Source: a virus
Length of the DNA: 20,827 bases
IMG/VR virus record: IMGVR_UViG_3300031566_000450
Coordinates: 1 to 20,827 of that record
Direction: 5' to 3' (one strand)
Every line of letters begins with the position of its first letter. Within the stretch, counting starts at the first letter, position 1. Both the position numbers and the translations under genes were made by a program. Under the pieces are notes generated by a model. That model did no database searches. It saw only the letters and a program-made list of their open reading frames with translations, and was not told the DNA's origin. Positions 3,063-18,208 of the stretch are shown piece by piece.

Positions 3063-3541
3063 ACATACTGGGCATCGACCCAGGCTCGATCATTACCGGT
3101 TGGTGTTTGCTCACGAACGGCAAGCGCAAGGACAGTGGCGTGATCAAGGTGAGCGCGAAGCTGGACTTCGAGGCGCGACGCGAACTTCTGCGTGACGAAC
3201 TGATGGAACTGTACAGGCGACTTTGGGTTTCGTGTAAGGGGCGACTGTCGGTGGCCCTCGAAGATCCGCAGAGCAGGGGGATGGATGTAGCCAAGAAGCT
3301 TGCGTGTATCCGGACGATGTTCGAGGAACGTGCGACCGACTATCGATGGCCGTACATCAAGGTCTATCCTGCCGAGTGGCAGGCGTTGCTACGCAGAGCG
3401 GTCCCTCCAGTTGAGGGAGAGAAGATTAAGGCGTTGAGCTTGCGCGGTGCATACGAGGCAGTGGGGATTGAGAAGCCGGATGAAGCAGATGCGTACTGGG
3501 TCGCTAGATACCTGTGGGAAGCAGGACAGCAAATATCTTGA
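3044..3541 (+). CDS. RuvC-like Holliday junction resolvase
   Basis: This is an RNase H-fold nuclease of the RuvC superfamily, expected to cut Holliday junctions or other branched phage DNA before packaging, with two metal ions. In 165 residues the acidic catalytic set is visible: D12 in ILGIDPGSIITGW, E73 in VALEDPQ, and D146 with D149 in KPDEADAYWVARY. The VYPAEWQ motif (about 108-113) is typical of phage RuvC-like proteins, where it precedes the C-terminal helix. Length is close to bacterial RuvC. The ATG lies 19 nt inside the preceding gene. The final part overlaps the next HNH gene in another frame. It sits among exonuclease, SSB and HNH genes, consistent with recombination-dependent replication. 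Confidence 0.87.
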   Translation: MSDRIVNILGIDPGSIITGWCLLTNGKRKDSGVIKVSAKLDFEARRELLRDELMELYRRLWVSCKGRLSVALEDPQSRGMDVAKKLACIRTMFEERATDYRWPYIKVYPAEWQALLRRAVPPVEGEKIKALSLRGAYEAVGIEKPDEADAYWVARYLWEAGQQIS

Positions 3542-3794
3542 TTGGATGCGGAAGCAGCCGTGCGTTGTGTGCCGAAGGGTGCCCAGCGACCCCGACCACC
3601 ACCCATCCAGAGGATCTGGACGCGGGACGGACCGACGTACTTACCCAGTGTGCCGGATGCACCATGTTGAGCGGCACCGTATCGGCATCTACACCTTCCA
3701 GCGCAAGTATGGGATTGATGTGGAGAGTGAGATTAGTTCCCACGAGCGGAGGTATGAGAAGTGGATGTTGAGGAACAAATCGAGCACGTCGTAA
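3480..3794 (+). CDS. DUF968/Ref-like HNH nuclease
   Basis: This small HNH-fold protein has the pattern C28xxC31 ... DPDHHP (37-42) ... C58xxHH62xxRH ... IGIYTFQRKYG. That pattern resembles DUF968 and the RecA-dependent nuclease Ref from phage P1, found in many phage recombination blocks. The YLDWMRKQPCVVC segment is the usual lead-in to the first cysteine pair. Counting is from ATG 3480 (104 residues). ATG 3489 and GTG 3447 are alternatives; all lie inside the resolvase gene, and none has a decisive SD. The 3' end overlaps the GTG-started gene at 3761. Probable role: nuclease in recombination or junction processing, coupled to the resolvase. The fold call is good; the exact family is tentative. 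Confidence 0.75.
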   Translation: MKQMRTGSLDTCGKQDSKYLDWMRKQPCVVCRRVPSDPDHHPSRGSGRGTDRRTYPVCRMHHVERHRIGIYTFQRKYGIDVESEISSHERRYEKWMLRNKSSTS

Positions 3795-4657: not shown

Positions 4658-4777
4658 ATGCGTTCGGTATACGTTCACTATCTTGTTCGCCTCATGTCGC
4701 CACAGTACACTGAGTGCCGTGGTGGTGTGGCGGTAGGCACTGAGGGGCGGCCGTCCTGGCAGGTGTTTGGGGAGTAG
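4658..4777 (+). CDS. Small ORF of 39 residues with strong SD
   Basis: ATG 4658 lies 2 nt after the stop of the HTH gene. It has the sequence AGGGGGT about 5 nt upstream, better than many neighbours. The frame encodes 39 residues (MRSVYVHYLVRLMSP... ending WQVFGE) and stops at TAG 4775-4777, inside the left arm of the terminator hairpin. I see no known domain. The SD, tight spacing and position as last gene before the terminator make real translation plausible, but a chance ORF this short cannot be excluded. Confidence 0.45.
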   Translation: MRSVYVHYLVRLMSPQYTECRGGVAVGTEGRPSWQVFGE

Positions 4778-4802
4778 GTGAGGAGCCTGCTCCCCTTTTT
4801 TT
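4769..4802 (+). terminator. Intrinsic (rho-independent) terminator
   Basis: A 10-bp stem pairs GGGGAGTAGG (4769-4778) with CCTGCTCCCC (4786-4795), with a single U-G wobble and a 7-nt loop, followed directly by seven T residues (4796-4802). This is a textbook terminator for the early block. Unusually, its T tract abuts the ATG of the ParB-like gene at 4803. Confidence 0.9.
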
Positions 4803-5327
4803 ATGAAAAAAATCATCACGAAAGTTGTCGGCCTGAAGCACATCCCGTGGGAGATTCTTCAGGGTTACGAGTTCAACGACCTGAAGGAGGTCGACAGCCG
4901 TGACGTGAGCAAGCTCAAGCGCGCGATCATCGAGCAGGGCTTCTGCTTCCCGATCGAGATCTGGGCTGGCCACCAGTACGTCATCGATGGCCGTGGCCGT
5001 GATGAAGCGCTGACGCAATTGGAGCAGGAAGGCTACGAGATCCCTCCCCTCCCCGTCATCGAGATCGAGGCACCGGATCGCGAGACCGCCAAGAGGCTCG
5101 TGCTGATGCGATCGTCGCAGCATGGACGGTTCACTCAATCGCAGCTGGAGGCCTTCGTGGCCGACATCCCGGTCGATGATCTAGATACCGTCGTCAGTAT
5201 TCCCGGCTTGGACATCGGAGTCCTGGGCTCGGACGTGGAGGACGCGGTCCCCCCTGACGACTTCGAGACGTTTGACGACGACATCAAGACGAAGCACCGT
5301 TGTCCGTCCTGCGGGTACGAATGGTGA
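4803..5327 (+). CDS. ParB/Srx-fold domain protein with C-terminal CxxC
   Basis: This is a 174-residue ParB-N-like protein. Residues 10-70 show the ParB pattern: IPWEILQ, then DVSKLKRAIIEQGFCFPIEIW, then the nucleotide-site motif IDGRGRDEAL (61-70). The end is HRCPSCGYEW (about 165-174), a lone CxxC that may bind metal. The fold includes CTP/ATP-using and phosphotransfer enzymes, and phage members often sit beside PP-loop enzymes and DNA methyltransferases. Here it heads the putative DNA-modification block and overlaps the PP-loop gene's ATG (ATGGTGA). A regulatory, DNA-targeting or phosphate-transfer role are all possible. The ATG lies directly after the terminator T tract with no SD at normal distance, yet the protein start (MKKIITKVVGLKHIP) looks natural. 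Confidence 0.8.
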   Translation: MKKIITKVVGLKHIPWEILQGYEFNDLKEVDSRDVSKLKRAIIEQGFCFPIEIWAGHQYVIDGRGRDEALTQLEQEGYEIPPLPVIEIEAPDRETAKRLVLMRSSQHGRFTQSQLEAFVADIPVDDLDTVVSIPGLDIGVLGSDVEDAVPPDDFETFDDDIKTKHRCPSCGYEW

Positions 5328-6253
5328 CGCCCTACTATATACAGCGTGGCCGACGGCTGTTCATCGAACGCTATCGGTACCTTGACCCGAACAACGAGGC
5401 CGAGATCATGCTGTCGGGTGGGGTCGACTCGGCTACCGTTCTATTCGCTGCGCTTGAGAACGGGCACAAGCCGCGTTGTCACACCTTCTTCCTTGCCGAT
5501 CGGATCTCGGACGACCTGAAAGTCGCACGGTCGATGACGAAGCGTCTCGGTGTTGAACTCAACGAGGTACCGATCAGCGTAGACCTGGACTCCCTGGTCC
5601 AGGATGTCGCGCGTGTGATGCGCGAGATCGAATGGCGCTTCCACAAAGGGCCGCGTCCGACGTTGATCCAGACGTGCCATCCGTTCCTCTACGTCTTGCC
5701 GCAAGTGAAGTCGGAGATTCTCATCACTGGCCTGGGGGCTGACGAACTGGCCGTGACGAATCGGCAGTCTGCGATGGCTATGCGGGTGGACCCTCGATGC
5801 CTGGATCGAGTCATGCGCAATCCGTTGCATAGGGGCGCAGGCGATAACTATCGTGAGTACGAGAGAATGGCGGGGAAGCGCGGGATCGCGCTGCGGAACT
5901 TCTTTGAAGGTGGCTCCATTATTAAATGGGCGTGGTGTGTGAGCCACGTAGACTTCAATGCCCCCCGGCAGAAATGGGCGATCGTTGCGCCGTTCAAGGA
6001 TTGGTGGAGTAAGGGCAAATGGTACCGGCGGAACTCGCCGTTCCAGATCGGCAGTGGGTTACGCGACCTGCACGACAAGCTGCTGACGACTGAATGGAAC
6101 GAAGGGGGACGCGCGGTGTCCTTCGTCTACAACCGGATGGCGCGATCGATCTGCACGCCTGACTTGGGCAAGCACTACGAGACGGGATGGGACATCATGG
6201 GTCAGCCTTGCGATGCAGTGTTCCAGTGGCCAACGCTAGGCAGCGATGATTGA
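5321..6253 (+). CDS. Asparagine-synthetase-like PP-loop ATP pyrophosphatase
   Basis: This is an adenylating enzyme of the asparagine synthetase C-domain type. From ATG 5321 (310 residues) the PP-loop is SGGVDS (32-37), followed by ALENGHKPRCHTFFLADR. The second family signature is ITGLGADELAV (135-144), matching the GxGxDE loop of AsnB-type enzymes. There is no N-terminal Cys2 glutaminase domain, so the nitrogen donor would be free ammonia or another amine. In the family the enzyme activates a carboxylate with ATP and amidates it, for example the aspartate side chain. Beside a CmoA-like enzyme and a C5-methyltransferase, I infer it amidates a carboxymethyl base. The frame is open upstream to TTG 5300, but ATG 5321 overlaps the ParB-like stop and is preferred. 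Confidence 0.8.
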   Translation: MVTPYYIQRGRRLFIERYRYLDPNNEAEIMLSGGVDSATVLFAALENGHKPRCHTFFLADRISDDLKVARSMTKRLGVELNEVPISVDLDSLVQDVARVMREIEWRFHKGPRPTLIQTCHPFLYVLPQVKSEILITGLGADELAVTNRQSAMAMRVDPRCLDRVMRNPLHRGAGDNYREYERMAGKRGIALRNFFEGGSIIKWAWCVSHVDFNAPRQKWAIVAPFKDWWSKGKWYRRNSPFQIGSGLRDLHDKLLTTEWNEGGRAVSFVYNRMARSICTPDLGKHYETGWDIMGQPCDAVFQWPTLGSDD

Positions 6254-6614
6254 TCGCGAGTTTTATAACCAGATCATCATGCGCGGCGTCTTGAACGTCC
6301 TGCCGAACCGACTGCGCGTGATGTTCCTGGACGACGACGGGCAGTACGTGAAGGGGTCGTTCTGGGTCGAGAACGTGAAGGCCGATCGGGACGAGGACGG
6401 CGTCATGTACATCGCGGCTGACGACTGCGTGTTCGAGATGGAGCCGGGAACCGTGATCACGCAGATGGAGCTACGGACCATGGATGGACAAGAGGTTGCG
6501 CGGTTTGTACGAACTGTGCGAGTAGAAGGACCGACGTTGCTCATCTGGTGGTATGGGTCAATCCATGGAAAAGACGGTCGCATCTGCACCTTCGACATCG
6601 GGGGGATCGAGTAA
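6246..6614 (+). CDS. Hypothetical beta-rich protein in the modification block
   Basis: This is a 122-residue protein without a recognised family. ATG 6246 overlaps the stop of the PP-loop gene by 8 nt. The sequence alternates short strands and acidic turns (LRVMFLDDDGQYVKGSFWVENV, MYIAADDCVFEMEPGTVI, ARFVRTVRVEGPTLLIWWYG), suggesting a compact beta-barrel or sandwich. There is no signal peptide, membrane helix or zinc motif. It lies between the asparagine-synthetase-like gene and the DNA methyltransferase, so it may be an accessory subunit of the modification pathway. That is inference from context. Confidence 0.75.
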   Translation: MIDREFYNQIIMRGVLNVLPNRLRVMFLDDDGQYVKGSFWVENVKADRDEDGVMYIAADDCVFEMEPGTVITQMELRTMDGQEVARFVRTVRVEGPTLLIWWYGSIHGKDGRICTFDIGGIE

Positions 6615-6636
6615 GCATGCCCTGGTCATTCCGACG

Positions 6637-7623
6637 ATGGCGGAAATTCATTCCGTCCCGCGTAATGGATACAACGTGGTCTCTACCTTCAGTGGGTGCG
6701 GAGGTTCGTGCCTGGGGTTTGAAATGGATGGCTACCGAACCCTCTGGGCAAACGAGTTCAGCACCCAAGCCGCCCGTACGTACCAAGTTAATCACCGTGG
6801 AGTTCCCCTGGATCGGCGCGACATACGTTTGGTTTGTGCGAGTGAAATACAGGCAGCACGAAGACCAGGGGAGATAGACGTGCTCGAAGGCTCGCCGCCA
6901 TGTGCGAGCTTTTCAGAGGCAGGGCATAAGAAGGAAGGATGGGGGAAGGTCAAGCGTTACAACGCGGAGATGCGACAGCGCACGGACGATCTGTTCTTCC
7001 ACTTCGCTCGTATCGTCCACGACCTACAGCCGAAGGTGTTCGTTGCCGAGAACACGCTAGGCCTGGTTCGTGGCTATGCGAAGGGGCACTTCAAGATCTT
7101 CCTCAGCCATCTGCGCGAACAGGGCTACCGTGTAGAGGCGAAGTTGTTGGATGCGATGTGGTTGGGTGTTCCTCAAAGGCGGCAGCGGTTGTTCTTCATC
7201 GGTGTTCGGAAGGATCTTGGCCTTCCTCCTGTATTCCCCCAGCCGTTCCCGTGGAAGTACGTGATGGCAGATGTTCTTCCCCATGTCGCCTACTTCCACC
7301 GGCCTGGCCTGACCAGCCGCAAGGTTCCTCGGCCCTGGTACAACGCGAAGCGCGAGGTGGCCAATGCGATCACGACTCATGCGATTCGTTCTTCGAAGAA
7401 GGCATGGTTTAGTTCATCGGGGATGGTTGAATTGGTTGACGGAACGAGACGGCGACTGACCGTTGACGAGATCAAGGTCTTGCACACGTACCCAGAGGAC
7501 TTCGAGCTAACGGGCAACGTCTACGATGCATGGGAAAGGGTCGGTCGCTCGGTGCCGCCCCGTATGATGTACGAGGTGGCGAAGACAATCCGGACGGGGA
7601 TTCTTGAAAGATGTATTTCGTAA
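6637..7623 (+). CDS. Cytosine-C5 DNA methyltransferase family enzyme with altered cofactor pocket
   Basis: This is a Dcm-type C5-cytosine transferase, 328 residues from ATG 6637; an in-frame ATG at 6553 would add 28 residues overlapping the previous gene. Motif I is VVSTFSGCGGSCLGFE (14-29). Motif IV is GSPPCASFS with catalytic C89. Motif VI is VAENT (E138), motif VIII QRRQR (180-184), motif IX RRRLTVDEIKVLHTYPEDF (271-289), motif X VGRSVPP (302-308). Two residues are unusual. The residue after the catalytic Cys is Ala90, where PCQ is common. The motif X Asn (GNSV/GNAV) is Arg304. In M.HhaI the matching positions, Gln82 and Asn304, line the cofactor pocket. The target recognition region between VIII and IX is short, possibly meaning low sequence specificity. 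I infer a carboxymethyltransferase using carboxy-SAM; plain methyltransferase activity is the alternative. Confidence 0.9.
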   Translation: MAEIHSVPRNGYNVVSTFSGCGGSCLGFEMDGYRTLWANEFSTQAARTYQVNHRGVPLDRRDIRLVCASEIQAARRPGEIDVLEGSPPCASFSEAGHKKEGWGKVKRYNAEMRQRTDDLFFHFARIVHDLQPKVFVAENTLGLVRGYAKGHFKIFLSHLREQGYRVEAKLLDAMWLGVPQRRQRLFFIGVRKDLGLPPVFPQPFPWKYVMADVLPHVAYFHRPGLTSRKVPRPWYNAKREVANAITTHAIRSSKKAWFSSSGMVELVDGTRRRLTVDEIKVLHTYPEDFELTGNVYDAWERVGRSVPPRMMYEVAKTIRTGILERCIS

Positions 7624-8027
7624 TGCGAAAGATCCACGTTGGAGTTGACGGGTGTTGGCTATGGACGGGGTCTCGGTGCAACGGTGGTTACGCTCAGGTC
7701 AGGCGTAAGGGGCGGATGATTATGCTTCATCGATATGTGCATGAAGCCATGGTGGGGCCTATCTCTGATGGGCTCGACTTGGATCATCTTTGCCGGGTGC
7801 GTCACTGTTGCAACCCTCGACACCTAGAGCCGGTTACGCGAAAAGAGAATATTGCTAGGGGGGAGTTACGGAACGTGATTCAGGAGTTGGCACAGGCTCG
7901 TACGGAATGCTGTAAGGGGCATTCTTATGAAGACGCATATATTTACAATGGCAAGAGGTACTGTCGTGGATGCAGACGTGAAGCGGATCGACGAAGGCAC
8001 GCAAAAGGCAAGCTCGCTAGGTCATGA
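7611..8027 (+). CDS. Free-standing HNH homing-type endonuclease
   Basis: This is an HNH_3-type phage endonuclease, 138 residues. GCWLWTG (14-20) and GYAQVRRKGRMIMLHRYVHE are the usual N-terminal part. The HNH core is LDLDHLC (55-61), HCCNPRHLEPVTRKEN (65-80), with D58, H59, N68 and H71 visible. After it comes a Cys/His module, ECCKGHSYEDAYIYNGKRYCRGCRRE, that probably binds zinc or DNA. ATG 7611 overlaps the end of the methyltransferase gene, and ATG 7623 is an alternative. The 3' end overlaps the in-frame upstream part of the CmoA-like gene. It probably nicks or cuts a DNA target and spreads by homing; its insertion between two modification genes looks secondary rather than functional. Confidence 0.87.
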   Translation: MYFVMRKIHVGVDGCWLWTGSRCNGGYAQVRRKGRMIMLHRYVHEAMVGPISDGLDLDHLCRVRHCCNPRHLEPVTRKENIARGELRNVIQELAQARTECCKGHSYEDAYIYNGKRYCRGCRREADRRRHAKGKLARS

Positions 8028-8721
8028 GCCGTCGCCTGACTGGCGGTTCGATGAGTCGGTGGTTGCCGTCTTCGAGGACATGTTGGCTCGCTCGATTCCC
8101 GACTACGAAGGGATGCGGAAGCTGACGACGGATCTCGCCGCGCAGTTCTTCATTGACTACAGTAACGTACTCGACCTTGGCTGCAGTAAGGGGGCGATGT
8201 ACGAGACGATGGGTCAGCACAAGTTCTGGCCTGAGCATCAGACGTACGTTGGTCTGGATAGTAGCCTTCCAATGATCGAGCACTGTCGTGCGACGTATGG
8301 TGCGGGTACGGGGTTCTGGTTGCTGGACCTCACCGTGGATGAGTTGCCCGTGCATCCGGAATCGTGCTCGGTGGTTCTCAGTGTCTTGACCATGCAGTTC
8401 GTGCCGATCAACTACCGCCAGGAGCTTTTGCGCCGGATCTACGACGCGATTCGGCCTGGTGGTGCATTCATCATGGTCGAGAAAGTCCTGGGCGAAAGCG
8501 CAGGTATGACAAAATTGTGGACATCCTTATACTGGGACATGAAGGAAGAGCATGGCTACACGATGGAAGAGATCGACCGTAAGCGCATATCACTCGATGG
8601 TGTGCTTGTGCCGGTCACTGCCTCGTGGAACCAAGACTTGTTGGAAAAGGCTGGCTTCTCAACAGTAGACTGCTACTGGCGTTGTATGAACTTCGCCGGA
8701 TGGATCGCAGTCAAGGAGTGA
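7927..8721 (+). CDS. cmoA: CmoA-like carboxy-SAM synthase (class I SAM-dependent enzyme)
   Basis: This 264-residue Rossmann-fold enzyme matches bacterial CmoA along its whole length, as judged against the E. coli sequence from memory. The N-terminal cap is DWRFDESVVAVFEDMLARSIP (38-58; E. coli DWTFDERV...). Motif I is VLDLGCSKGA (81-90), motif II GLDSSLPMIEHC (109-120), then LTMQFVP, then LRRIYDAIRPGGAFIMVEK (168-186). The region after it, IDRKRISLDGV (216-226), aligns with the CmoA segment carrying the arginine (Arg199 in E. coli) that contacts the carboxylate of carboxy-SAM; here R220. The C-terminus is RCMNFAGWIAVK. CmoA makes carboxy-SAM from SAM and prephenate, normally for CmoB-dependent tRNA wobble uridine modification; no CmoB is present here. 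The start is uncertain: ATG 7927 has an AAGGGG upstream, and GTG 7978 gives a length nearer to CmoA. Confidence 0.85.
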   Translation: MKTHIFTMARGTVVDADVKRIDEGTQKASSLGHEPSPDWRFDESVVAVFEDMLARSIPDYEGMRKLTTDLAAQFFIDYSNVLDLGCSKGAMYETMGQHKFWPEHQTYVGLDSSLPMIEHCRATYGAGTGFWLLDLTVDELPVHPESCSVVLSVLTMQFVPINYRQELLRRIYDAIRPGGAFIMVEKVLGESAGMTKLWTSLYWDMKEEHGYTMEEIDRKRISLDGVLVPVTASWNQDLLEKAGFSTVDCYWRCMNFAGWIAVKE

Positions 8722-11023: not shown

Positions 11024-11184
11024 AGTGGGATGAGCAAGCACCGCCGATCGAGGTCACGCAGCACCAGAAAGAAATCATCGCCGCTGCTGTCACTCGGCTC
11101 CGAGAATGGAAGGGAGAAGCCTTACCTGAAGGTCGTGCCCTCGAAATCATCTGTGTCGACTTCATCGAGTCCTTCAAGGAATAA
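11020..11184 (+). CDS. Small ORF of 54 residues coupled to terL
   Basis: ATG 11020 overlaps the terL stop as ATGA, the typical sign of translational coupling. The product (MKWDEQAPPIEVTQHQKEII... ending FIESFKE) is acidic, with one likely amphipathic helix (TQHQKEIIAAAVTRLREWKG) and a second short helix. It reads like a real compact protein, whereas the competing frame from 11030 is a Ser/Arg-rich low-complexity stretch. No family recognised. Confidence 0.65.
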   Translation: MKWDEQAPPIEVTQHQKEIIAAAVTRLREWKGEALPEGRALEIICVDFIESFKE

Positions 11185-11215
11185 CCTATGGGGCAACATC
11201 AGAGTTCTACTATGG

Positions 11216-11752
11216 ATGGGGCACAAGCCAGTACGCATTGCGAAGATCTATGCGTTCCGTGGAATCGATGCGCAGCAGATCCGTTGGCAGAATTTCAAGC
11301 GATGGAGGATCGACGCGAAGACCGGCTCGAAGAGAGGCCCCCGCTGCCCCGGCTGCCGCAAGCGCAAGCCATGCTTCAAGACCGACCTCTGCAAGACGTG
11401 CTACTGGACTTCGCAGCGCAAGGGACGACCCAGCGGCCCCGCCGCCCCAGGCTGGAAGGGCGGAAGGACATTGACGCCGGATCAGGTACGGTTGACGCCG
11501 CAGTACCGAGCGTTCAGACGCCGTATCTTGAAGCGAGACAAGTATCGCTGCACCAAGTGTGGTGCGGAGCGAGTCGATGGCGCGAAGCTCGAAGTCGATC
11601 ATGTGGTGCCGCAAGCGGCGAGGAAGGATCTGATTCTGGACGAGTCGAATGCGCGGACGTTGTGCGTGACCTGTCACCAGGGGACGGATACGTGGGGCAA
11701 TCGTGCCAAGTACCACAGGCATTTGGAGCGGAAGCGGAGGCGGGATGGGTAA
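11216..11752 (+). CDS. HNH nuclease with HTH and zinc ribbon
   Basis: This 178-residue protein begins with an HTH-like segment (GHKPVRIAKIYAFRGIDAQQIRWQNFKRWR, 2-31), then a zinc ribbon C44xxC47 ... C59xxC62, a Gly/Pro-rich linker, and a C-terminal HNH domain: QYRAFRRRILKRDKYRCTKCGAERV...LEVDHVVPQ...LDESNARTLCVTCHQ. The HNH core is canonical (CxxC, DH, N, CxxCH). HNH proteins next to terminases can activate packaging cleavage (as in HK97 gp74); this one has an extra DNA-binding part and may instead be a mobile nuclease. The frame is open back to 11030, but that would overlap the 54-residue gene with unstructured sequence, so ATG 11216 is preferred. The stop overlaps the next ATG. Confidence 0.83.
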   Translation: MGHKPVRIAKIYAFRGIDAQQIRWQNFKRWRIDAKTGSKRGPRCPGCRKRKPCFKTDLCKTCYWTSQRKGRPSGPAAPGWKGGRTLTPDQVRLTPQYRAFRRRILKRDKYRCTKCGAERVDGAKLEVDHVVPQAARKDLILDESNARTLCVTCHQGTDTWGNRAKYHRHLERKRRRDG

Positions 11753-15360: not shown

Positions 15361-15421
15361 GAGGCGTAACGCCTCAAGGTCGGGGCTAGCAACCGTTCGT
15401 GGTGCCCAGCGTGGTGCTGGG
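15361..15421. repeat. Two small hairpins in the leader of the Lys-rich gene
   Basis: The 77-nt gap after the protease gene contains GAGGCG-TAA-CGCCTC (15361-15375) and CCCAGC-GTGGT-GCTGGG (15405-15421). Neither is followed by a T tract. They may shape the transcript or protect mRNA ends; regulation is not shown. Confidence 0.4.
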
Positions 15422-15434
15422 ATGGAGGAAGAGG

Positions 15435-15857
15435 ATGACGATCGAAGACTTCGAACCTGAATCATGGGTTGAGGAGTGGCTGGGCGAACCGGCCTTCGAT
15501 CCGGAAGAGATCGCGATGCTGCCGCGTGGCAGCGGAGTTGGTGGTGGCGTGGCGCGTAAGGCGCTTGCGGCTGGTGGGATCAAGAACAAGGCCCAGCAGA
15601 CGCGCATCATCAATGCGAACAAGGACTCACGGGGACGTGTGAAGCGCGGAGGAATCACCAAGGCCATCAAGAAGGCTAGTAAGTCTGGCAAGGTGGGCAA
15701 GCGCGCAGCTACGGTTCTGGGATCCAAGAAATCTTCCGGCAAGAAGTCTGGTTCGAAGAAGGCCGCTAAGAAGGCTGCTAGCAAGAAGTCGACGAAGAAG
15801 GCTGCTAGCAAGAAGTCGACGAAGAAGGCTAAAGCATCGAAGAAGAAGAAGCGTTAG
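15435..15857 (+). CDS. Histone H1-like Lys/Ala-rich protein
   Basis: This 140-residue protein starts at ATG 15435 after a GGAGGAAGAGG leader. Residues 1-30 are acidic (MTIEDFEPESWVEEWLGEP), residues 35-95 contain Gly/Arg/Lys-rich helices (GGITKAIKKASKSGKVGKRA), and residues 95-140 are an almost pure Lys/Ala/Ser/Thr tail with KKAASKKSTKK repeats. Such tails bind DNA or RNA nonspecifically, as in bacterial histone H1-like proteins. Its place between protease and major capsid genes suggests a virion-associated DNA-condensing or head-assembly protein. A capsid decoration role is also possible. The tail contains a 27-bp perfect tandem repeat. Confidence 0.75.
   Translation: MTIEDFEPESWVEEWLGEPAFDPEEIAMLPRGSGVGGGVARKALAAGGIKNKAQQTRIINANKDSRGRVKRGGITKAIKKASKSGKVGKRAATVLGSKKSSGKKSGSKKAAKKAASKKSTKKAASKKSTKKAKASKKKKR
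15771..15824 (+). repeat. 27-bp perfect tandem repeat, two copies
   Basis: Positions 15771-15797 and 15798-15824 are identical 27-mers, each starting AAGGCTGCTAGC and ending GACGAAG. Each encodes KAASKKSTK in the basic tail of the Lys/Ala-rich protein. Identical third bases point to recent duplication by slippage. Confidence 0.9.
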
Positions 15858-17133: not shown

Positions 17134-17166
17134 GGGGGGCGGGGCCATGCGTCCCGCCCCCCTTTT
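17134..17166 (+). terminator. Strong intrinsic terminator after the capsid gene
   Basis: GGGGGGCGGG (17134-17143) pairs perfectly with CCCGCCCCCC (17153-17162) around a 9-nt loop, followed by TTTTGGTTTT. The all-GC stem and T-rich tail indicate efficient termination of the capsid transcript. An ATG lies in its loop, in frame with the glycosyltransferase, but is unlikely to be used. Confidence 0.9.
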
Positions 17167-17173
17167 GGTTTTC

Positions 17174-18208
17174 ATGGGCGAAGCCGCAGAAAAACTTACG
17201 TCGCCATGGCCGATGTCGCGGGTACGCTGGTCGCAGCCGATGACGAAGAGTTACGGGGGCTTTATCGGATACGGCAACCTGTCGCGTGATCTCGGTAAGT
17301 GCATCACACCCGACGACAGTGCGCCCTGTAGCCTCACCCTCGCAGACCCGTCGCTTTCGCTAGAGGACGTAGGCGGGACGAAGCTGCTGTACACAATGTG
17401 GGAGAGTCGCGACTTCCCACGTGCCTATGTAGAGAACATCGAATTTGCCGATGTGCTGATTGTCCCATCGCGATTCTGTCACGACACGTTCAAGAAACAT
17501 TTCCCTAAGAAGCCGATCCACTTGCTGTCACCAGCGGTGGATTCGGAAACGTACACGTACCGGCGACGCAAGAAGCCACGCGTGAACAAGGGAGAGAAGT
17601 TCCGATGGCTGTGGGTCAACGCTCCCGACGTTCGCAAGGGCTACCATATGCTGGCCCAGGTCTGGGAGAAGACCTTCATGAAGGCTCCATGGTGTGAGCT
17701 TTACCTGAAGACGACGAACAACACCGAGGACAAGTTCGAGCGCAGAGCCAACGCGATCTTTGATTCACGCTTCCTGCCTAAAGACGAACTCGTCGACCTG
17801 TACCACTCCGCTCACGGGTTCATCTATCCGACATGGGGCGAAGGCTTTGGCTACACGTTAGCTGAAGCGATGGCGACGGGGCTGCCGTCCGTGGCCACGA
17901 ACTGGTCAGGCCAGACCGACTTTATGAACCCGGCCGTGGGCTACCCGGTCGACTACGACTTCTGGCGCGTGACGCGCGAACTGCATGTCTCGGCAGGGGG
18001 TGGCGAGTCTCACTCGTTGGCCGAGGACATGAAGTACGAGATCTCGATCTGCAAGGTCAGGGACATGATCCGGCAGATGGCAACGGTGATGGACAAGTAC
18101 TCGCCTGCTGTCGAGAAAGCGCAACGAGGTGCGCGATTGATCCGACGAGACTACACTCTTGAGAAGATGGCGGCGGGGCTGCACGAGATAGTGGAGAGGT
18201 ATTCGTAA
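17174..18208 (+). CDS. GT-B fold glycosyltransferase (GT4-like)
   Basis: This 344-residue protein (from ATG 17174) is a GT-B glycosyltransferase. The N-terminal domain has YGGFIGYGNLSRDL, the glycine-rich acceptor-site loop of GT4-like enzymes, and EFADVLIVPSRFCHDTF. The C-terminal donor-binding domain has FRWLWVNAPDVRKGYHMLAQVWEKTF and the E-x7-E nucleotide-sugar motif EGFGYTLAE (223-231), followed by AMATGLPSVATNWSGQTDF. It transfers a sugar from an activated donor; the acceptor could be a virion protein, host surface sugar or modified DNA. Lying amid head/tail genes, a virion protein is my first guess. The start is uncertain: ATG 17147 lies inside the terminator loop, and ATG 17213 (MSRVRWSQP) is also plausible. 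None has a good SD. Confidence 0.83.
   Translation: MGEAAEKLTSPWPMSRVRWSQPMTKSYGGFIGYGNLSRDLGKCITPDDSAPCSLTLADPSLSLEDVGGTKLLYTMWESRDFPRAYVENIEFADVLIVPSRFCHDTFKKHFPKKPIHLLSPAVDSETYTYRRRKKPRVNKGEKFRWLWVNAPDVRKGYHMLAQVWEKTFMKAPWCELYLKTTNNTEDKFERRANAIFDSRFLPKDELVDLYHSAHGFIYPTWGEGFGYTLAEAMATGLPSVATNWSGQTDFMNPAVGYPVDYDFWRVTRELHVSAGGGESHSLAEDMKYEISICKVRDMIRQMATVMDKYSPAVEKAQRGARLIRRDYTLEKMAAGLHEIVERYS

Follow-up and report, generated by a model that had tools for sequence, protein, structure and literature searches.

The window analysed here is the entire virus record IMGVR_UViG_3300031566_000450 of IMG/VR, a stretch of DNA of 20.8 kb. Positions 4803–8721 hold a block of six genes, all on the + strand, which very probably directs the carboxymethylation of DNA cytosine followed by the ligation of an amide, with no particular amine implied. 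An earlier sequence-only reading of this DNA named five open reading frames, encoding a ParB-like protein, an AsnB-type ligase, a small protein, a C5-cytosine transferase, and CmoA, and all of them are present at the coordinates listed below. The HNH endonuclease gene located between the transferase and cmoA was missed in that reading. The features of the locus are:

4769–4802, + strand: hairpin with an 11-pair stem followed by TTTTTTT, directly before the start codon of the ParB-like gene
4803–5327, + strand: ParB-like protein with a C-terminal CPxCG zinc-knuckle (KTKHRCPSCGYEW); PHROG ParB families, E 2e-9 to 3e-9
5321–6253, + strand: stand-alone ATP-dependent amide ligase of the AsnB/beta-lactam-synthetase type, read as a third class; PF00733, 1.5e-11; SGGVDS PP-loop
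6246–6614, + strand: small protein, lineage-specific to this phage; no match in Pfam or PHROGs
6637–7623, + strand: CmoX-type DNA cytosine C5-carboxymethyltransferase; PF00145, 4.9e-53; SPPC with Cys89; Arg304
7611–8027, + strand: free-standing HNH_3 endonuclease, between cmoX and cmoA; phrog_826, 4e-42; PF13392, 5e-11
7927–8721, + strand: CmoA-type carboxy-S-adenosylmethionine (carboxy-SAM) synthase; phrog_4752, 3e-67; PDB 4gek, E 1.8e-34

The block is not an accident of assembly, because near-identical copies are present in two additional IMG/VR contigs. Relatives of CmoA occur in 82 of 50,697 phage records, yet they lie within a few kilobases of 75 of the 80 related transferases from viral contigs. 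Such a co-occurrence of these genes greatly exceeds what chance would produce. The order ParB–ligase–CmoX–CmoA is found again in loci L041 and L044; this phage has the small open reading frame and the HNH gene in addition.

The system formed by CmoA, CmoX, and CmoY has been described in Synechococcus phage S-B43 (Yang et al., Nat Commun, Dec 2025; PMC12783734). In S-B43, CmoA produces carboxy-SAM, CmoX forms 5-carboxymethylcytosine (5cxmC) at a GC motif, and CmoY attaches glycine; the resulting glycine amide is present in the phage DNA (PMC12783734). The same study identified thousands of CmoX proteins in IMG/VR and other sets by the criteria of SPPC and Arg350, frequently adjoined by CmoA, AMP-forming ligases, and ParBc proteins. 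ParBc neighbours occur in many phages with a role given as unknown, certain ligase clusters differ in their active sites and have no assigned amine, and 5cxmC blocks HhaI (PMC12783734). The claim that the five-gene arrangement was undescribed was thus overtaken in December 2025, and the chemistry proposed from the sequence is right in kind and already published. No prior prediction of such a system was found in the searched part of the text of a jumbo-phage survey (PMC7824862). The present analysis adds the third ligase class, the knuckle of the ParB-like protein, and the rule linking Arg or Asn in the transferase to CmoA, tested in two gene sets.

The window shares with S-B43 adjacent genes for a carboxy-SAM synthase, a transferase with SPPC and a carboxylate-binding Arg, and a stand-alone AsnB-type ligase. 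By contrast, the gene order in S-B43 is CmoA–ligase–CmoX and no ParB has been detected at its locus, whereas the window has the ParB, small protein, and HNH genes. Homology, diagnostic residues, and co-occurrence have been computed here; the first two reactions and the glycine ligation are taken from the homologue in the literature; and we infer that the enzymes are active in this phage, as well as the amine, the role of the ParB-like protein, and the protection of DNA.

The top PDB matches of the window CmoA, 4gek and 1im8 (CmoA of E. coli and Haemophilus), cover the full domain, with the match to 4gek spanning residues 37–263. The start of the gene is uncertain, and the conserved domain begins at about position 8030. 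The window protein retains the equivalent of E. coli Arg199 (codon 8584–8586), the sole residue that contacts the carboxyl group in the E. coli enzyme (PMC4482062). The synthesis of carboxy-SAM is strongly supported by homology and by the biochemistry of the homologous S-B43 system (PMC12783734).

The top PDB match of the transferase is SpCmoX of S-B43 (8yf3, E 5e-47), and the HaeIII and HhaI methyltransferases rank lower. The SPPC motif (EGSPPC) includes the catalytic Cys89, and Arg304 (codon 7546–7548) corresponds to Arg350 of SpCmoX, with ERVGRSVPP aligned to ERVGRMVPP. Ordinary C5-methyltransferases have Asn at this position (HhaI Asn304). The features of CmoX membership, namely SPPC, Arg at position 350 of SpCmoX or 304 of HhaI, and a nearby CmoA (7927–8721), are all present. 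Of the two altered residues proposed for the cofactor pocket, one is confirmed and corresponds to Arg304 in place of Asn. The formation of 5-carboxymethylcytosine is strongly supported by homology, the diagnostic Arg, the co-occurrence of CmoA, and the biochemistry of S-B43 (PMC12783734). The transferase belongs to PF00145 and bacterial CmoA is a tRNA-modification enzyme, which would suit an ordinary 5-methylcytosine methyltransferase next to a CmoA and a ligase that serve tRNA or metabolism. However, such an arrangement is highly improbable given Arg304 in place of Asn, SpCmoX as the nearest structure, and the tracking of Arg by CmoA in both phages and bacteria; it has been rejected on the Arg304 and CmoA evidence.

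The association of Arg with CmoA has been determined in two gene sets whose search patterns do not include the Arg position. The ParB-first set, for which the ParB family, instead of the transferase, served as the starting point, comprises 77 transferases from 80 viral loci. Arg together with CmoA is found in 65 of them, Arg without CmoA in one, which is near a contig end, and Asn without CmoA in ten, with no case of Asn with CmoA and one transferase unaligned. After the removal of near-copies, the corresponding counts are 43 Arg with CmoA, none Arg without, none Asn with, and seven Asn without. In the bacterial-genome set, a local CmoA accompanies 16 of 18 transferases with Arg and none of 65 with Asn or Met. 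The ligase is present at 24 of 66 Arg loci of the ParB-first set versus none of the ten Asn loci (p 0.026).

Named phages follow the same pattern. Arg-type transferases with an adjacent CmoA are encoded by Moraxella phage Mcat8, Streptomyces phage TurkishDelight, and Synechococcus phage S-CRM01, and Erwinia phage SNUABM_5 has an Arg-type transferase with CmoA elsewhere in its genome. Control C5-methyltransferases with Asn or Met, from Escherichia phage 12474, Aphanizomenon phage CL131, Flavobacterium phage FPSV-S2, and Bacteroides phage Versailles, have no adjacent CmoA. The Asn group, which lacks CmoA and the ligase, is nested within the Arg group (99 in the Shimodaira–Hasegawa-like approximate likelihood ratio test), and CmoA is likewise missing in a separate case with Leu (L023). 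The switch between Arg and Asn provides a simple sequence rule for separating carboxymethyltransferases from methyltransferases.

The Asn-type transferases nested in the CmoX clade are those of loci L116, L130, L142, L152, L153, L154, L161, L162, L164, and L176. These ten loci contain the ParB-knuckle gene and lack CmoA and the ligase, and their enzymes appear to have reverted to, or remained with, methyl transfer. Sets of CmoX, CmoA, and ParB genes are also found in the bacterial genomes of Nonomuraea fuscirosea (L184), Spirosoma arboris (L199), and Endozoicomonas (L198 and L200). They are possibly prophages, some of them are from named strains, and they offer convenient material for assays.

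The ligase is 310 residues long, has its PP-loop at residue 32, and lacks an N-terminal glutaminase domain. Its AlphaFold2 model (predicted local distance difference test (pLDDT) 85, predicted template modelling score 0.84) adopts the same synthetase fold as asparagine and beta-lactam synthetases. The VIA Z scores are 24.1 for human ASNS, 23.5 for beta-lactam synthetase, and 21.1 for E. coli AsnB, with root-mean-square deviations of 3.0–3.4 across 260–265 residues. The synthetase-domain fold (Z 21–24) and the PP-loop are thus shared with E. coli AsnB and beta-lactam synthetase. Unlike E. coli AsnB, the window ligase has no N-terminal glutaminase domain, and it has Gln117 and Asn238 in place of Arg324 and Lys449. 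The SGGVDS PP-loop, Asp141, Lys218, and Gln242 are retained.

The tree of phage ligases has two deep groups, glutaminase-bearing and stand-alone, each with support of 100/100. The window ligase belongs to the stand-alone group and lies outside its CmoY clade (16 rows, support 98/93); it is 24–28% identical to CmoY of S-B43 and has different active-site residues. The active sites have been compared at the positions of Arg324, Glu348, and Lys449 of AsnB (chain numbering of 1ct9). Phage glutaminase-bearing ligases have Glu, Glu, and Lys throughout, whereas the CmoY clade has, with few exceptions, Glu, Gly or Ser, and His. The window ligase has Gln117, Glu142, and Asn238, and is read here as a member of a third class together with the ligases of L044 (Gln, Asp, Ala), L181 from a Microbacterium metagenome-assembled genome (Gln, Gly, Asn), and L263 (Gln, Asp, Asn). 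The four proteins share the motif WYRxNSPxQ followed by S-G-L-R, and each is encoded next to an Arg-type CmoX and a ParB-knuckle gene; CmoA is in view at three of the four loci, and L181 is a short contig. The window contig and its three relatives thus define a ligase class whose signature is clear-cut. This third class, set against the CmoY clade and the glutaminase-bearing ligases, would be one of the several clusters to which the published survey (PMC12783734) could assign no amine. Searches with the single ligase protein found only the near-identical contigs of the same phage, and no usable conserved stretch emerged when five diverse ligases were aligned.

The divergent sequence of the ligase and its altered positions could also indicate that it is degenerate or acts elsewhere, leaving 5-carboxymethylcytosine as the final base, and 44 related loci of the first set have ParB, CmoX, and CmoA with no ligase detected. 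However, SGGVDS, Lys218, Gln242, and Asp141 are kept, and the conservation of the class-specific motif at about 30% identity indicates selection and points to a functional enzyme whose pocket differs, so that a degenerate ligase is distinctly improbable.

Several observations weigh against the assignment of the block to carboxymethylation and amide ligation. Arg199 of CmoA is not universal, since 89 of 149 phage CmoAs collected have Glu and 53 have Arg; because the active SpCmoA of S-B43 is of the Glu type, Arg199 supports activity without being required. The p-values for Arg and CmoA overstate the independence of the loci, as the tree requires only about four residue changes. No CmoA is visible at two Arg loci of the bacterial-genome set and four viral ones (L028, L068, L072, and L074), in part because of contig ends. 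The one case contrary to the Arg rule is a very divergent C5-transferase with Gly, from Staphylococcus phage vB-SscS-F1 (L008:5263–7781), which has CmoA and a ligase adjacent; either the rule has an exception here or the enzyme uses another solution. The support for the third ligase class as a group is modest (89/72), with an identity of only about 30% among its members.

The final base may differ from the known glycine amide because the ligase belongs to a separate class. Given this third class, the amine is most likely something other than simply glycine or ammonia, and there is slightly less than an even chance that ligases of the third class couple another amine and generate a DNA base unseen in nature. 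It is somewhat unlikely that the ligase is a functional CmoY and the product the glycine amide of S-B43. The strongest E-value among sequenced phage genomes is that to CmoY of S-B43 and two sister phages (4e-21), and the stand-alone domain layout and gene partners are alike. However, the ligase is outside the CmoY clade (98/93), and three positions that are near-uniform in the clade differ, with Glu replaced by Gln117, Gly or Ser by Glu142, and His by Asn238. Its active site therefore departs from that of the tested stand-alone member as well, which counts against inferring glycine.

The sequence-only reading favoured amidation to 5-carbamoylmethylcytosine, for which there is no specific support because the ligase lacks a glutaminase domain; it falls within the stand-alone branch, in which the one member tested uses glycine. 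The conjugate with another amine, which that reading gave as an alternative, fits better than the ammonia product. Ammonia is retained only as a rival because Glu142, at the position of Glu348, recalls the ammonia-using AsnB, whereas glycine-type CmoY has Gly or Ser there, but the counterpart of Lys449 is lost. This Lys, replaced by Asn238 in the window, is kept in all glutaminase-type ligases examined. The position of Glu142 varies among the class-mates (Asp in L044 and L263, Gly in L181), the module contains no separate glutaminase, and the ligase does not group with the glutaminase-bearing phage ligases (100/100). The N-terminal amidotransferase domain of the A0A7T0Q3R0 cluster, which is of the glutaminase type (PMC12783734), is also absent. 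The use of ammonia is therefore unlikely.

Two cultured or named phages carry comparable clusters. The cluster of the cultured Pseudomonas phage PaBG encodes a ParB, a cytosine methylase, a tRNA cmo5U methyltransferase, a hypothetical protein, and an asparagine synthase, and thus has the same four protein types in a single block. Its CmoX is the top match to the window transferase in sequenced phages (43%). Unlike in the window, the ligase gene of PaBG comes last and encodes a CmoY-type enzyme (Glu, Ser, His), and the extra genes are different. Streptomyces phage TurkishDelight likewise has ParB, an Arg-type CmoX, a ligase, and CmoA, but its ligase includes a glutamine amidotransferase domain.

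In the proposed mechanism, CmoA would make carboxy-SAM from SAM and prephenate. The CmoX-type transferase would flip a cytosine out of the DNA at a short motif, Cys89 would attack C6, and Arg304 would hold the carboxymethyl group during its transfer to form 5-carboxymethylcytosine. The PP-loop ligase would then use ATP to adenylate the carboxyl group and couple a small amine to it as an amide. The bulky base may shield the phage DNA against restriction, which is plausible in view of the block of HhaI by 5cxmC (PMC12783734). Mom of phage Mu provides a bulky amide-bearing base that protects phage DNA; its base and enzyme differ from those of the window. Hypermodification of DNA by way of a carboxymethyl handle is a recent discovery.

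The ParB-like protein has no match in Pfam, PF02195 included, even at E 10. The CPxCG knuckle is present at the end of 75 of the 77 ParB-like neighbours of related transferases, with the consensus DENIETEHxCPKCGYxWSG and the window version KTKHRCPSCGYEW. The same ParB family accompanies Asn-type methyltransferases and therefore probably serves the transferase or its DNA and not carboxy-SAM. As the Arg/Asn switch shows, the ParB-knuckle protein travels with the transferase. Because it is found with both carboxymethyl- and methyl-type transferases, it probably helps the transferase to act on DNA.

The small open reading frame at 6246–6614 has relatives, in the viral-contig scan, Pfam, and PHROGs, only in two near-identical contigs of the same phage. 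Its single-sequence model (pLDDT 55) is too poor for a fold search, and a candidate counterpart in PaBG has been tested and rejected. The HNH gene runs from within the end of cmoX into the start of cmoA and looks like a mobile free-standing nuclease. A longer contig of this phage carries a paralogue (E 1.4e-32) further upstream (L102:2751–3191, − strand), where it adjoins a second ParB-like gene. Three more HNH or endonuclease-VII-like genes are present within the 20.8 kb, at 2120–2587, 3447–3794, and 11030–11752. The hairpin at 4769–4802 is a possible boundary of the module, based on a consensus match only, and promoter-like sites in the window occur at about chance level.

The other genes of the window include those for a RecE-like exonuclease, SSB, terminase, portal, protease, and major head protein. 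Among the structural genes is a GT4-type glycosyltransferase (17147–18208; PF20706 GT4-conflict, phrog_2170), which could decorate the virion or, less likely, DNA. The open reading frame at 15399–15857 encodes a basic protein very rich in lysine and alanine, and includes a 27-bp tandem repeat at 15768–15830.

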